A stretch of DNA of 24,641 nt from a virus. The notes beneath the pieces were generated by a model. It saw only the letters and a program-made list of their open reading frames with translations. It was not told the origin of the DNA and searched no databases. Location of the stretch: positions 1 to 24,641 of IMG/VR virus record IMGVR_UViG_3300032287_000549. One strand, 5' to 3'. The position numbers and the translations under genes were made by a program. This document shows positions 12,440 to 18,869 of the stretch, one piece after another. Each line of letters starts with the position of its first letter. The first letter of the stretch is position 1.

Positions 12440-12853
12440 CTAACGCATACGCCTTTCAGCGCGATTGATAGCGAGGCGCACCATACCATTTGGTGCTTGA
12501 TCTGACCATTGCTCAAATTCTAATCGAGAAATGTAGGGCAGATTGTTTGTTATCCAAAAGATATTGCCAGTTGCCTGACCGATTGCAGCCTGACCTTTGA
12601 AAATAGCATCAGTTGATCCGGCGCTTTCTTTTGGGGCGGTTATCCCGCTGCCACTGTCAGCATTGAAACTAATTGTCCCGCTTTGCGGTGTCCCGATGCT
12701 GCAAAGCCAATTTGCCCTTGCCCGCCCAGTATCAACTGGCGTGTTGAGGACAATATCTTTGAGAAGGTCAAGGCAAATGGTTCTGACATAAGTGTCAGCA
12801 TCCTGCCCAACCCGCTCTGCAAATTTTTTCATATCCAGAGAAAATGTTGTCAC
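12440..12853 (-). CDS. Neck/tail-completion protein, HK97 gp10-like
   Basis: 137 residues. An N-terminal helix (FAERVGQDADTYVRTICLDL) is followed by NTPVDTGRARANW and near the C-terminus NNLPYISRLEFEQWSDQAPN with GMVR, the two hallmark segments of HK97 gp10-like proteins of phage neck regions. The start is GTG at 12853, with AGGG 7 nt upstream and a GTGA overlap with the tail terminator. An internal ATG at 12832 is a less likely start. It is followed by a 60-bp gap holding a candidate promoter for the major tail gene. Confidence 0.87.
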   Translation of the reverse strand: MTTFSLDMKKFAERVGQDADTYVRTICLDLLKDIVLNTPVDTGRARANWLCSIGTPQSGTISFNADSGSGITAPKESAGSTDAIFKGQAAIGQATGNIFWITNNLPYISRLEFEQWSDQAPNGMVRLAINRAERRMR

Positions 12854-14638: not shown

Positions 14639-15610
14639 TTAGCTTGCAGCGTTGCCAACAGCCATAACACCAGCAGTGTGCTTGATGGAGGTGGCAACCT
14701 TGTCCCAGTTAGAACCAGTTGCAAGTTCAGCATCCGTTGGCGATTTGCCGCCGTTTGCCACATCCCAAGTGTAACCCTTAAGGGCAACGCCAAAGGTGTA
14801 ATCAACCTGCATCGTGGTTTCGATACGGGTCTGACCGTTGTTGGTCTGGATGTTGCTGATGACATCGCCGCCATCATAAACAACAGCAGCGCCATCAACG
14901 AGGCCAAGGACGCGCAGCTTGTTTGGAGTGCCAGCAACATAAAGGGCAGGGGCATCAGTTACGATGACCGGACGGCCCAGAATGTCCACAACCTGCACGT
15001 TTTGTGCAACGAAAAGCTGACCAGCGTTCGTGATGTTCTGCGAAATCAGCTTGTGATATGCAGAGCCGTTCATCACGTTGGCAACAATCGCTTGGCTGCT
15101 ATCGCCAAACAGTGCGTGAGCAGCGTTCATGGCGCTGTAGCTGATGCCAGCCGAAGCTGAAACGTCATTGGTTGTGGCAGCGCCTTGGTTGGCAATGGCA
15201 GCGCAAAGCGCAGCAATAGCCGTGTTAAGCTGGTCAGCCAGAAGAGCCTCAGCAAAGTTGCGCGATGCAACTTCGATGCCTTCGCTCGTTGGCTTCTGCA
15301 ACCAAGTCAACTGACCCGGCTCAAAGCGGATGGGGCCGAAACCACCAGCAACCTTGACACCGCTTGCCTGTAGCTGCGTCAGGTCAGTGGCCGTGGCCGA
15401 TGCCTGAGACGCATAACGGTCAACCCGGCGCTGTGCCGAGTGGATTGCTGCAAAGAAACTCTGCTGCAAAAAGTCACCGTCAAAGCCCGAAGTGGTCAGG
15501 CGGATGGCACCGTTCGAGGCACCGTTAAACTTATCAACCATCTGACCGAGGGTTTCGATGGTGGCTGGCATGATGTATTCGTTGAATACCTGCATCTGCG
15601 AAAGCGACAT
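14639..15610 (-). CDS. Major capsid protein
   Basis: 323 residues, starting MSLSQMQVFNEYIMPATIET, a beginning I associate with a family of HK97-fold coat proteins in marine and environmental siphophages. Features fit the fold: a helix around residues 100-140 (SEGIEVASRNFAEALLADQ), a central segment with NVMNGSAYHKLISQN, then VQVVDILGRPVIVTDAPAL and a beta-rich C-terminus with VDYTFGVALKGYTWD. There is no long N-terminal delta domain, so an internal scaffold domain is unlikely, consistent with a separate scaffold gene. An AAGGAT site precedes the ATG. The position directly after scaffold, and the terminator-like hairpin after it, also support the call. Confidence 0.92.
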   Translation of the reverse strand: MSLSQMQVFNEYIMPATIETLGQMVDKFNGASNGAIRLTTSGFDGDFLQQSFFAAIHSAQRRVDRYASQASATATDLTQLQASGVKVAGGFGPIRFEPGQLTWLQKPTSEGIEVASRNFAEALLADQLNTAIAALCAAIANQGAATTNDVSASAGISYSAMNAAHALFGDSSQAIVANVMNGSAYHKLISQNITNAGQLFVAQNVQVVDILGRPVIVTDAPALYVAGTPNKLRVLGLVDGAAVVYDGGDVISNIQTNNGQTRIETTMQVDYTFGVALKGYTWDVANGGKSPTDAELATGSNWDKVATSIKHTAGVMAVGNAAS

Positions 15611-15621
15611 AACTTAAATCC

Positions 15622-16218
15622 TTATTCTGCTAGGTTAGGGAACATTTGTTTAATTGCATTAACCCGCTGCGTTTTGTCGCCTCCAAGGTTGCCCTTGGGA
15701 GCCATAGACTGCTGCTGTCCGTTGCCCCCAGCCGCGCCACCGCCAGAGTTGGCAGGTGCCGAAATGAAGTGCTTGCCTTCATCGCTAGAAGCCCATTCCG
15801 CAACAGCGTCAACGAGCGGCTTATCAGCCATGAGCGCAGAATAGTTGCCATCCTCAGCTTTGATCTGCGCTTGATTGCGCAGCATTGCCTTGGCGGCACT
15901 CATAAACTCAGAGCGGACACCAACTTTGACGAGAGCATCAGTCAGCCCATTGTCGATCAGATAAGACTGCAAAGCACCATCCTTGGTAGTCAGGTCTTTT
16001 TGCAACTGATCAATCGTCTTTGCGCTTTCCTTAGACGCCTTTGCCAAGTCAGCCTTCAACCCTTCAACCTCTGATTGAAGTGCTGCATAATCTGCTGGAT
16101 CAATCTCAGCACCCAAAGCCTTGGCCTTGGCTGCCTTGTTTTCGTTCAACAGTTCACGATTTTTAGTCGATAAGACTTCAATCGCCGCTTCAAGTTCTGC
16201 AATCCGATCTTCACTCAT
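15622..16218 (-). CDS. Capsid scaffolding protein
   Basis: 198 residues. The first ~85 are heptad-rich coiled coil (MSEDRIAELEAAIEVLSTKN and onward, to QLQKDLTTK). A globular segment follows with YLIDNGLTDALVKVGVR and EFMSAAKAML, then DEGKHFISAP, a Gly/Gln linker and a short basic C-terminal helix (DKTQRVNAIKQMFP). This plan is typical of phage scaffold proteins, whose C-terminal helix binds coat protein during procapsid assembly. The start has an AGAGGA site. The gene lies 11 bp upstream of the major capsid gene. No separate ClpP-, U35- or S78-type prohead protease is visible nearby. Confidence 0.87.
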   Translation of the reverse strand: MSEDRIAELEAAIEVLSTKNRELLNENKAAKAKALGAEIDPADYAALQSEVEGLKADLAKASKESAKTIDQLQKDLTTKDGALQSYLIDNGLTDALVKVGVRSEFMSAAKAMLRNQAQIKAEDGNYSALMADKPLVDAVAEWASSDEGKHFISAPANSGGGAAGGNGQQQSMAPKGNLGGDKTQRVNAIKQMFPNLAE

Positions 16219-16240
16219 GTTCTATCCTCTGGATAATCCA

Positions 16241-16310
16241 CCCCTCAGGGGCTTCTTGTGTCCCTCAGGGACGGTTTTGCCCCTCAGGGGCGGGTTTGCC
16301 CCTCAGGGGC
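16241..16310. repeat. Array of four palindromes with 19-20 bp spacing
   Basis: Four short palindromes lie in series: CCCCTCAGGGG at 16241-16251, TCCCTCAGGGA at 16261-16271, GCCCCTCAGGGGC at 16279-16291 and GCCCCTCAGGGGC at 16298-16310. Their centres (16246, 16266, 16285, 16304) are 20, 19 and 19 bp apart, about two helical turns. The last two also share the flank TTTGCCCC. Unit 2 has changed both outer bases in a compensatory way (T/A for C/G), which suggests the pairing is kept. In the scaffold leader RNA each could form a small GC-rich hairpin. As DNA, the array would suit a dimeric protein bound on one helix face. Confidence 0.8.
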
Positions 16311-16350
16311 GCTAAGTTGTTCCGGCTCAGCCTTCGCAACCATTATGAGC

Positions 16351-16379
16351 ATCATAACATGAAAATGTATAAATGCTAA
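16351..16379 (-). promoter_or_regulatory. Candidate sigma-70 promoter upstream of scaffold/capsid genes
   Basis: On the minus strand TTAGCA (16379-16374) and TATGAT (16356-16351) are separated by exactly 17 nt, matching TTGACA/TATAAT at 4 and 5 of 6 positions. The surrounding 16345-16400 is unusually AT-rich for this window. Transcription would begin near 16344, placing the four palindromes and the scaffold start in one leader. Confidence 0.4.
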
Positions 16380-16412
16380 TCTCTGTTTAACAATCAGCTT
16401 CAATGCCGCTGC

Positions 16413-16613
16413 TTACACAATCGGTTCAATGTCTCCATCATATAATGGGTCATTAACAATGCGCGCAACGCCATCCATCAGCATCATGACATCATCCCAT
16501 TCCTCAGGTGGAATTTTGGTGAAAATTTCCTCCATCAAATCCAGATCGCTTTGCATCAGGGCGCTGCCCTTGCTGGACAAGATTTCTTGCGCTTGATCAA
16601 TTGGCTTGGTCAT
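16413..16613 (-). CDS. Small acidic protein overlapping the MuF-peptidase gene
   Basis: 66 residues, starting at the ATG at 16613 rather than at an upstream alternative start because AGGAG lies 6 nt before it, inside the MuF gene. It overlaps the MuF reading frame by 17 bp in another frame, so it depends on MuF translation. The protein is clearly acidic (clusters such as DLDLMEEI, PPEEWDD and DGDIEPIV) and predicted helical, with no membrane segment. I do not recognise the family. Position and charge fit an immunity or inhibitor protein for the peptidase domain, but a small head-assembly cofactor is equally possible. Confidence 0.65.
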   Translation of the reverse strand: MTKPIDQAQEILSSKGSALMQSDLDLMEEIFTKIPPEEWDDVMMLMDGVARIVNDPLYDGDIEPIV

Positions 16614-18675
16614 TAAGCAACTCCTCAATAAGTTTGATTGCGTCAGGGTCAACCAAGTCACGTTTTCCCATCATATAAAGGGCAAAGTTTTCAGCGAACC
16701 ACTCATAGCCATCAGTGGTTGAGTATTTTGACGCTTGCTTGTCCCGCTCAGATTTTGATTTTTTTGCCCAGATGTGGACAAGCCTTTTTTCAATCGGCGG
16801 TGCTTCTGATCTGCGCGATGTGGTTTTGCCATACATCTGATGGAGATGGTGAGCAAATTCATGAAACAAGACGCTTCGCGCGCGATCAACGCCATTGTCC
16901 ATATAATGCTCAACGCCAAATGGTCGCTTTTCAACGTCATCACCCGGCTTCCAACTGCTTGGCAGGACATTGTTTCGCCTGTTGAGTTGGAGGATTTTGG
17001 AGTTCTTGTTCACCTCAGCGGCCAGCTTGTTATATTCTTTGACAACAGCGGACTTCTCTAGCCAAAGCTGGCTATATTCTGGCGATGCGCGGGATACCGA
17101 GCGCAGTTGTTCATCAATAGCATCCAAGCGGCTGCTGTAACCTCTGAGGGTTGCCCTGAGGGCGTCATTGGCATCCTCAAGACGCGCAATCACGCTTGCA
17201 CCTGATTTTTCGCCAACATTCGCTGCATAGCTGGTGAAATATTGAGGGTTTAGGAACATGATCCCATCACCCATTGATCCAACAGTGTTGCTGCTTTTTG
17301 TGGTCTTAAAGCCACGGAGTTTTGGCAATCCAAAGCGGGCCGCAAGATCATCCAATTCTGGCTTGAGAGCCACAAACATGGACATTGCTTCATCACTAAA
17401 TGCGGTGCTGAGGTTTGATTTGCCTATATCGTCTTGCTTGATGCCACGATAAACGATGCGGCTTTCTGTCAAATATGCGGGGTCAGCAGCGCCAAGAGCG
17501 AATTGCGCGGTCAGAATTTTCTGCGCTTCCTTGCGCGGGATAACCTTGATGGTGTCAGCGTTCACCTCAGGATTAAATGCTGGTGCATTCACAATGCGCT
17601 TAGGCGGCTGCTGAGGCTCTATCGTTGGCTTCGCAGCAACAGATGCGGCACCATACTGGCTGCGCAGTTCCGCAAGCGTCAGCGGATTGCCACGTTGATC
17701 AAGAAGCTGGTTGAGCGTGATTTTGCCAGAGCGCCACAACTCTGCACGGCCTTTGCCGAGCATCTGGTCAGCAAACTCTGGTGGCTTGCTCCTCAGGAAT
17801 GCGTCAAAGGTCAGGTCAGCCGCAACATATCCGTCCATGCTGGCACGGGTTGATGGCTCCACATTATCCTTGATGCGTCCGTTGCTCAGTTCCTCAAAGG
17901 ACTTTGTGATCGGGATGAATGTTGAGCGGCAATTCCAATGCGCTGGCGGGCCACCATTCCAAGGGATTTTGTGCTTGATGGGCTTGAAGTCTGGATATGT
18001 CCAAGTTTTGCCTGAGCGCACAATGCAGATGTCAGAGGTGCGGCTGTCCAGAGTGGAGACCCATTGCACCGCCTTGATGATGTCAGCATTGGCCTCAAGC
18101 GATGCAAGGCGCGCATCCTTGGCAACGGTCTGCACGGCAGTGCGGGTGATCGCCATTGCGTCACGGCGGCTCTTGGCAATTGGCTCACCACCCTTGTCGC
18201 CAATGCCCATGATTGACTTGGCAATCTGAGCATTGGTCTGGCCGAGCGAAACGCCATTCTTGACCGTTCGCTCAACGTCAAAACGGGTGCTTTCATTGAG
18301 GCGGGAAAACCAGTTCCCGATGGTCGCGCCTTGGACAAGGCTGCCCTGCGCAATGCTCTCAAGTGCTGAGATGGGTGGCAGGACAGCATCAATGCCGACA
18401 CTTGCCATCGCATCCCGAAAAAACTCAGCCTCAGCGACACCAAGTTCCGCAAGATCGGGAGCCTTGATGTCGATGACGGCCTTTAGTTCGGCAACGGCCT
18501 TGTCCAGCCGCTTGCCTTGATATTCTGACAACTCCTTGCCCTTCAACTGCTTTTCAAGCGCAGCCGCAATGGCATCAAGCTGCTTATTAAGCTGGACGCT
18601 TTGCCCAGCTATCACCCGCTCTAAGAGCAGTTGCCTGATGACTGACAGGTCAAGGAGTTTGTCAGAAACATTCAT
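16597..18675 (-). CDS. MuF head-morphogenesis protein fused to a zinc metallopeptidase domain
   Basis: 692 residues from the ATG at 18675 (a TTG one codon earlier is less likely). Residues ~1-340 form a minor head protein of the phage Mu F type: an N-terminal helical part, then RRDAMAITRTAVQTVAKDAR, then two cysteines (about 217 and 249) in SDICIVRSG and PAHWNCRSTF, the MuF core signature. MuF proteins sit inside the portal vertex and can be injected with DNA. A Pro/Ala linker (~345-365) leads to a second half absent from simple MuF proteins. It has a conserved-looking stretch around residues 440-480, a coiled coil (~500-560), then HEFAHH at 605-610 and a downstream YEWFAENFALY in which Glu661 could be the third zinc ligand (gluzincin pattern). 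The C-terminal part is either an unusual maturation protease or an injected effector. Confidence 0.85.
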   Translation of the reverse strand: MNVSDKLLDLSVIRQLLLERVIAGQSVQLNKQLDAIAAALEKQLKGKELSEYQGKRLDKAVAELKAVIDIKAPDLAELGVAEAEFFRDAMASVGIDAVLPPISALESIAQGSLVQGATIGNWFSRLNESTRFDVERTVKNGVSLGQTNAQIAKSIMGIGDKGGEPIAKSRRDAMAITRTAVQTVAKDARLASLEANADIIKAVQWVSTLDSRTSDICIVRSGKTWTYPDFKPIKHKIPWNGGPPAHWNCRSTFIPITKSFEELSNGRIKDNVEPSTRASMDGYVAADLTFDAFLRSKPPEFADQMLGKGRAELWRSGKITLNQLLDQRGNPLTLAELRSQYGAASVAAKPTIEPQQPPKRIVNAPAFNPEVNADTIKVIPRKEAQKILTAQFALGAADPAYLTESRIVYRGIKQDDIGKSNLSTAFSDEAMSMFVALKPELDDLAARFGLPKLRGFKTTKSSNTVGSMGDGIMFLNPQYFTSYAANVGEKSGASVIARLEDANDALRATLRGYSSRLDAIDEQLRSVSRASPEYSQLWLEKSAVVKEYNKLAAEVNKNSKILQLNRRNNVLPSSWKPGDDVEKRPFGVEHYMDNGVDRARSVLFHEFAHHLHQMYGKTTSRRSEAPPIEKRLVHIWAKKSKSERDKQASKYSTTDGYEWFAENFALYMMGKRDLVDPDAIKLIEELLNDQAN

Positions 18676-18869
18676 CAATTGGGTTTTTCAATTTGCGCCT
18701 GTGCTTGAGCCATGACGTTGCGAATAACCGGGTCAGAAACCCGATGAGGCAATTCGCCCAATGCGCGGAAAATGAGGTTGGTATCATCAACCGACAGGGT
18801 AAAATTCAGCATAGGCGGCTGTTGCGGCTGCTGCTGCGCTTCATCAAACTTGTCCAATTCTTCATTCAT
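18675..18869 (-). CDS. Small conserved phage protein, function unknown
   Basis: 64 residues from the ATG at 18869, chosen because AGGA lies 8 nt upstream. A second ATG at 18878 adds three residues but its purine stretch directly abuts the start codon. The N-terminus is Gln/Pro-rich (a QQQPQQPP stretch), and the C-terminus carries LNFTLSVDDTNLIFRALGEL followed by LPHRVSDPVIRNVMAQ. I recognise that half as recurrent in small phage proteins of unknown role. The stop overlaps the MuF start as TGATG, so translation is probably coupled to MuF. It could be a small head or MuF-associated factor. Confidence 0.65.
   Translation of the reverse strand: MNEELDKFDEAQQQPQQPPMLNFTLSVDDTNLIFRALGELPHRVSDPVIRNVMAQAQAQIEKPN

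Follow-up and report, generated by a model that had tools for sequence, protein, structure and literature searches.

Coat proteins of RNA phages of the MS2 type are structural proteins that recognise a small loop over a ribosome-binding site. The host proteins CsrA and RsmA bind sites with GGA in small hairpin loops, and in their multi-hairpin targets a loop motif is shared by several small hairpins, one of which lies over the Shine-Dalgarno sequence. The scaffold gene of phage P22 (gene 8) reportedly regulates itself by a post-transcriptional mechanism. In phage T4, the autogenous operator of gp43 combines an upstream hairpin with a sequence that overlaps the ribosome-binding site (PMC3014915). 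Autoregulation of the P22 scaffold gene is attributed to Wyckoff and Casjens (1985), as cited in PMC5744158. Here we analysed a virus record of 24.6 kb (IMGVR_UViG_3300032287_000549, hereafter the window, meaning the whole stretch of DNA), in which a 194-nt gap (16219-16412) precedes a scaffold gene and a capsid gene on the minus strand. Three kinds of hairpin make up the leader RNA encoded by this gap: the basal P0, the upstream P1, present here in four copies, and P2, which contains the scaffold Shine-Dalgarno sequence. We tentatively favour, at slightly under even confidence, the reading that the scaffold-capsid mRNA begins with this stretch as a structured 5′ leader, which serves as a translational operator whose likeliest ligand is unassembled scaffold protein.

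14639..15610, minus strand: major capsid gene, next in the operon (PF20036 Gp13-like, E 1.7e-122; phrog_247)
15622..16218, minus strand: scaffold gene, 198 aa (phrog_206 head scaffolding protein, E 3e-18), candidate for both the controlled gene and the ligand
16223..16235, minus strand: P2, UAUCC-AGA-GGAUA, holding the Shine-Dalgarno AGAGGA (from sequence; -3.6 kcal/mol)
16240..16252, minus strand: P1 unit d, nearest the gene, GCCCC-UGA-GGGGU, outer pair G.U on RNA (-7.0 kcal/mol)
16260..16272, minus strand: P1 unit c, GUCCC-UGA-GGGAC, with a compensatory pair (-5.8 kcal/mol)
16279..16291, minus strand: P1 unit b, GCCCC-UGA-GGGGC (from sequence and folding)
16298..16310, minus strand: P1 unit a, GCCCC-UGA-GGGGC (-7.9 kcal/mol)
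16316..16340, minus strand: P0, a two-part hairpin, GUUGC-GAA-GGC-UGA-GCC-GGA-ACAAC (folds alone, -7.3 kcal/mol)

The four regularly spaced palindromes that an initial annotation of this DNA had reported are all present, with CCCCTCAGGGG at 16241-16251, 16280-16290 and 16299-16309 and TCCCTCAGGGA at 16261-16271, at intervals of 20, 19 and 19 nt. On the minus-strand RNA they form hairpins of the type GCCCC-UGA-GGGGC (four, units c and d being variants), and the second unit (unit c) does keep its pairing through changes in both arms, GUCCC/GGGAC on RNA, as had been noted. The whole leader folds with z = -5.1. CCCTNAGGG recurs at a single further site in the window, 17154-17162, inside the MuF gene. 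Near-matches to CCCCTNAGGGG number 18 where 7.6 are expected, a count that 0/100 shuffles reached. The initial annotation had missed two features, the hairpin P2 over the Shine-Dalgarno sequence and the hairpin P0 5′ of the array, and both are conserved in relatives. P0 is made up of an outer stem, a purine-rich internal loop, an inner stem and a UGA triloop; its outer stem is compensated in relatives (UGC/GCA, CGC/GCG, GUUGC/GCAAC). In relatives P2 reads GUCC-AGA-GGAC.

Nearly all of 40 distinct IMG/VR leaders show the order P0, P1, P2 and then the ATG. P1 usually occurs once (GCCCC-NGN-GGGGC), with two copies in one relative (L006), three in another (L007) and four in the window, which is the longest array found in this analysis. 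Because P1 is usually single in relatives, the array in the window is a conserved element that has been amplified locally. The initial annotation had held that repeat-free relatives with the same genes would speak against its proposal; in substance the relatives carry fewer copies rather than none. Triloops tend to be shared within a leader, P0 and three P1 copies having UGC in L007, P0 and two P1 copies AGA in L006, and P0 and four P1 copies UGA in the window. When 21 distinct leaders were aligned, 95.5% of cells were paired, compared with 30-53% when the partners were slid, and changes compensated on both sides were found in P0 and P1. A scan of 2.9 million viral contigs gave 62 exact matches to the pattern, of which 56 lie immediately upstream of this scaffold gene. 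The tandem P1-P1 pattern was also found elsewhere in viral contigs, mostly within long reading frames of collagen-like-looking repeats; the rest comprised a stretch rich in GC and a further non-coding case, L519. In the latter a tandem GCCCCTGCGGGGC repeat at 12660-12693 lies in no long reading frame and is the clearest non-coding case beyond the scaffold leaders.

For the wider comparison some 470 loci encoding a capsid of this family were used, named phages among them; family-wide counts refer to non-redundant scaffold leaders, with starts called automatically and strict twin-hairpin criteria. Twin mini-hairpins, an upstream P1 and a P2 that covers the Shine-Dalgarno sequence, were present in 115 of 205 scaffold leaders. 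Dinucleotide shuffles gave 32 ± 5 (maximum 47), and as further controls 25/203 capsid starts and 67/363 other genes had such a pair. Small hairpins were found to end on or at the Shine-Dalgarno sequence of the scaffold gene in Kagunavirus K1H, Serratia Tsm2, Vibrio and Pseudoalteromonas phages, Pseudomonas Kakheti25, PS-1 and R656, Rhodobacter RcTitan and Acinetobacter TCUAN1, while the scaffold leaders of Sphingomonas phage Lucius and Acinetobacter IMEAB3 have no obvious hairpin pair. A conserved RNA structure thus overlaps the Shine-Dalgarno sequence of the controlled gene, as is characteristic of translational operators. In K1H (L164, GU196278), the annotated TTG scaffold start at 1817 would place both hairpins within the coding sequence, and translation more likely begins at the ATG that follows the GUCC-AGG-GGAC hairpin.

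The palindromes could instead act on DNA, as arrayed operator sites beside a promoter for a dimeric regulator of transcription, which was one of two functions that had been proposed for them. A promoter-like site followed downstream by perfect palindromes every 19-20 nt would suit such an arrangement. The hairpin pair, however, was found in 50 of 85 leaders with a gap below 60 nt and in 55 of 86 longer ones; gaps this short leave no room for a promoter, yet the pair is about as frequent in them. Moreover, the last palindrome covers the Shine-Dalgarno sequence, the number of copies ranges from one to four, and non-standard stem pairs on the mRNA strand are 19 G.U against 9 A.C (controls 7:18 and 21:21), a mildly informative bias. 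The short gaps and the hairpin tied to the Shine-Dalgarno sequence speak against the DNA operator, which we rejected as the main explanation and regard as very improbable.

The promoter-like site itself lies just upstream of P0:

16351..16379, minus strand: sigma-70-like promoter, TTAGCA-17-TATGAT with TG extension (9/12 consensus matches)

The TTAGCA-17-TATGAT element exists as the initial annotation described it, and on its own it is not significant (3 promoter-like sites in the stretch, 1.4 expected). The extended -10 element TGnTA is invariant in the 21 distinct close leaders, and a putative promoter in the lineage of the window is plausible from this pattern. As a general feature of the family a promoter was not supported: TGnTATAAT-like elements occur in 22/203 leaders where 10.7 are expected, and many relatives leave no space for one.

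Intrinsic terminators were found at most 160 nt upstream in 31 of 203 non-redundant scaffold leaders (L163, L259, L483-L495 and others), in 1/203 capsid starts and in 5/516 random stretches. The median distance from the terminator T-run to the ATG is 65 nt, and several of these terminators leave no promoter space before the scaffold gene. An RNA antiterminator (put-like) or an RNase processing site serving the late operon would be consistent with such upstream terminators and, in the lineage of the window, with hairpins in the nascent RNA right after the promoter. The terminators nevertheless lie upstream of the hairpins and not downstream, many leaders lack a promoter close by, and the final hairpin stays tied to the Shine-Dalgarno sequence, so we consider an antiterminator or processing site improbable.

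Within a phage, P1 and P2 carry matching loops. The P1/P2 combinations include GGU/AGU, UGA/AGA, AGG/UGG, UGU/UGU, GGAU/GGAU and AAA/AAA, and the loop classes comprise NGN triloops, GGAU tetraloops and others. Letter identity between P1 and P2 loops was 177/285, compared with 75 ± 9 after permutation, and 23 pairs of loops were fully identical where 3.5 were expected and 0 were found in controls. When permutation was confined to loops of the same length, identity was still 70% against 49 ± 2.5%. The middle base of the triloop is G in 52/64 P1 and 57/64 P2 hairpins. At stem positions 2-4 from the loop, P1 and P2 showed no significant match above permutation. Matched loops on free stems point to loop recognition and away from mere duplication, and they suggest a ligand specific for this RNA, which was not among the functions that the initial annotation had put forward.

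That annotation's other proposal, a hairpin array in the leader RNA that affects stability or ribosome access, held as to form, in that a conserved hairpin pair exists whose last member covers the Shine-Dalgarno sequence. A version without any ligand is the main rival to the operator that we favour: small hairpins would tune ribosome access, through a weak P2 and a stand-by site between the hairpins, and would protect an abundant mRNA from decay. The stabilities are compatible with this (P2 -3.6 to -4.2 kcal/mol, P1 the stronger at -5.8 to -7.9 kcal/mol), as are the short, A-rich linker (median 7 nt, 44% A) and the position before the scaffold-capsid pair. It leaves unexplained, however, why P1 and P2 loops match when their stems differ and why loop classes are exchanged along with the scaffold gene, and we judge it unlikely overall, though likelier than the other rivals.

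That exchange was apparent when loops were compared between phages. Loop similarity was 0.69 between phages with a similar scaffold and different MuF, 0.04 with similar MuF and different scaffold, and 0.16 with a similar capsid when both others differed. Rank correlations agree: the loop class tracks the scaffold gene and not capsid, MuF or host. Pseudomonas phages and prophages alone have at least three loop classes, namely GGAU in R656, GGU/AGU in Kakheti25 and AGG/UGG in prophages of the P. fluorescens group, which makes a conserved host ligand unlikely. A host RNA-binding protein such as CsrA/RsmA would fit the GGAU-loop class (R656, PS-1, ctUtU524), which puts GGA in small loops. The loops of most classes, however, do not contain GGA (UGA, UGU, AGU, GGU, AAA), those in the window being UGA and AGA; the flanking A(N)GGA context is absent, and three classes among Pseudomonas phages and prophages alone are difficult to reconcile with one host reader. 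We therefore hold a CsrA/RsmA role to be quite improbable. The loop tracking and the Pseudomonas classes together make capsid, MuF and a conserved host protein poor candidates, and on this comparison of sequences the scaffold protein appears the best candidate for the ligand. In the GGAU-loop class (L167, L178), similar hairpins with loops GGAU and GGAC precede the capsid gene (position 2501) by no more than about 110 nt, and the same ligand may control both scaffold and capsid genes there.

In the operator that we favour, a phage-encoded protein would recognise the loops of P0, P1 and P2, all of which are NGN triloops here, and would bind several hairpins cooperatively. P1 and its extra copies would provide additional binding sites. 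The bound protein would close P2 against the ribosome and so turn off scaffold translation, and if unassembled scaffold is that protein, the resulting autogenous loop would match scaffold supply to assembly. Phages must balance scaffold and capsid, and the element at the scaffold start spans phages of many proteobacterial hosts, including Escherichia, Serratia, Pseudomonas, Vibrio, Acinetobacter and Rhodobacter. It is possible, with distinctly less confidence than we give the operator in the window, that a widespread phage family sets scaffold synthesis by loop-coded mRNA hairpin arrays that the scaffold protein reads, with codes specific to lineages. If so, these phages would offer ready-made, naturally orthogonal RNA-protein pairs.

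Several observations weigh against a scaffold-bound operator. The predicted minimum-energy fold pairs the array units with one another and does not form four separate hairpins. Covariation in the close set is significant but modest, and P2 is invariant there. About 44% of the leaders fail the strict twin-hairpin test, partly because of automatic start calling. Leader and scaffold gene are adjacent, so that their joint inheritance through recombination accounts for the tracking just as well; this physical linkage confounds the association, which is better evidence against other ligands than for the scaffold. The AlphaFold model of the scaffold has a long coiled coil, a small alpha/beta domain and a C-terminal helix (pLDDT 80.5, pTM 0.46), and a fold search with it matched no solved (RNA-binding) fold at E <= 0.001. 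Finally, the P22 gene 8 leader was considered as a homologue and rejected, as it has no comparable upstream hairpins.

By analogy, the T4 gp43 operator would be the nearest described mechanism and P22 scaffold autoregulation the nearest biological precedent. The gene 43 (DNA polymerase) leaders of T4 and RB69 resemble the present one in having a conserved-loop hairpin upstream of the start and overlap with the ribosome-binding site (PMC3014915), but they have one hairpin, control a replication enzyme, and show neither a Shine-Dalgarno hairpin nor a loop-matched array. P22 gene 8 is reportedly also under autogenous control and, like the gene here, encodes a phage scaffold (Wyckoff and Casjens 1985). 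The MS2-type operator differs in belonging to an RNA phage, in its gene and loop and in being a single hairpin. The loop motif here, unlike that of CsrA/RsmA targets, is NGN in most cases and differs among phage lineages that share a host genus. In the open-access papers that were searched we found no earlier description of the hairpin element, nor any described RNA site for scaffold-gene autoregulation; the conserved element makes the question of such a site directly testable. No Rfam family matched the window or the leaders of 18 related loci at the gathering cut-off, and at a low threshold nothing credible was found, the matches looking like chance. In Pseudomonas phage R656 (L167), 5802-5875 matches the Rfam int-alpA RNA (RF02996) just above the gathering score.

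The genes of the window lie on the minus strand and include portal, tail-fibre-like, collagen-like and MuF genes. Around the leader the order is MuF, a small gene, the gap, scaffold, capsid and then further structural genes. The small gene (16413-16616, minus strand) matched no PHROG or Pfam family, and its start may be an ATG near the MuF stop and not the upstream GTG. The MuF protein (16597-18678, minus strand) has a zinc-peptidase-like motif HEFAHH (HExxH) in its C-terminal half, encoded near 16830-16880. Thus the MuF and peptidase that the initial annotation had listed as a gene pair are one reading frame of 693 aa.
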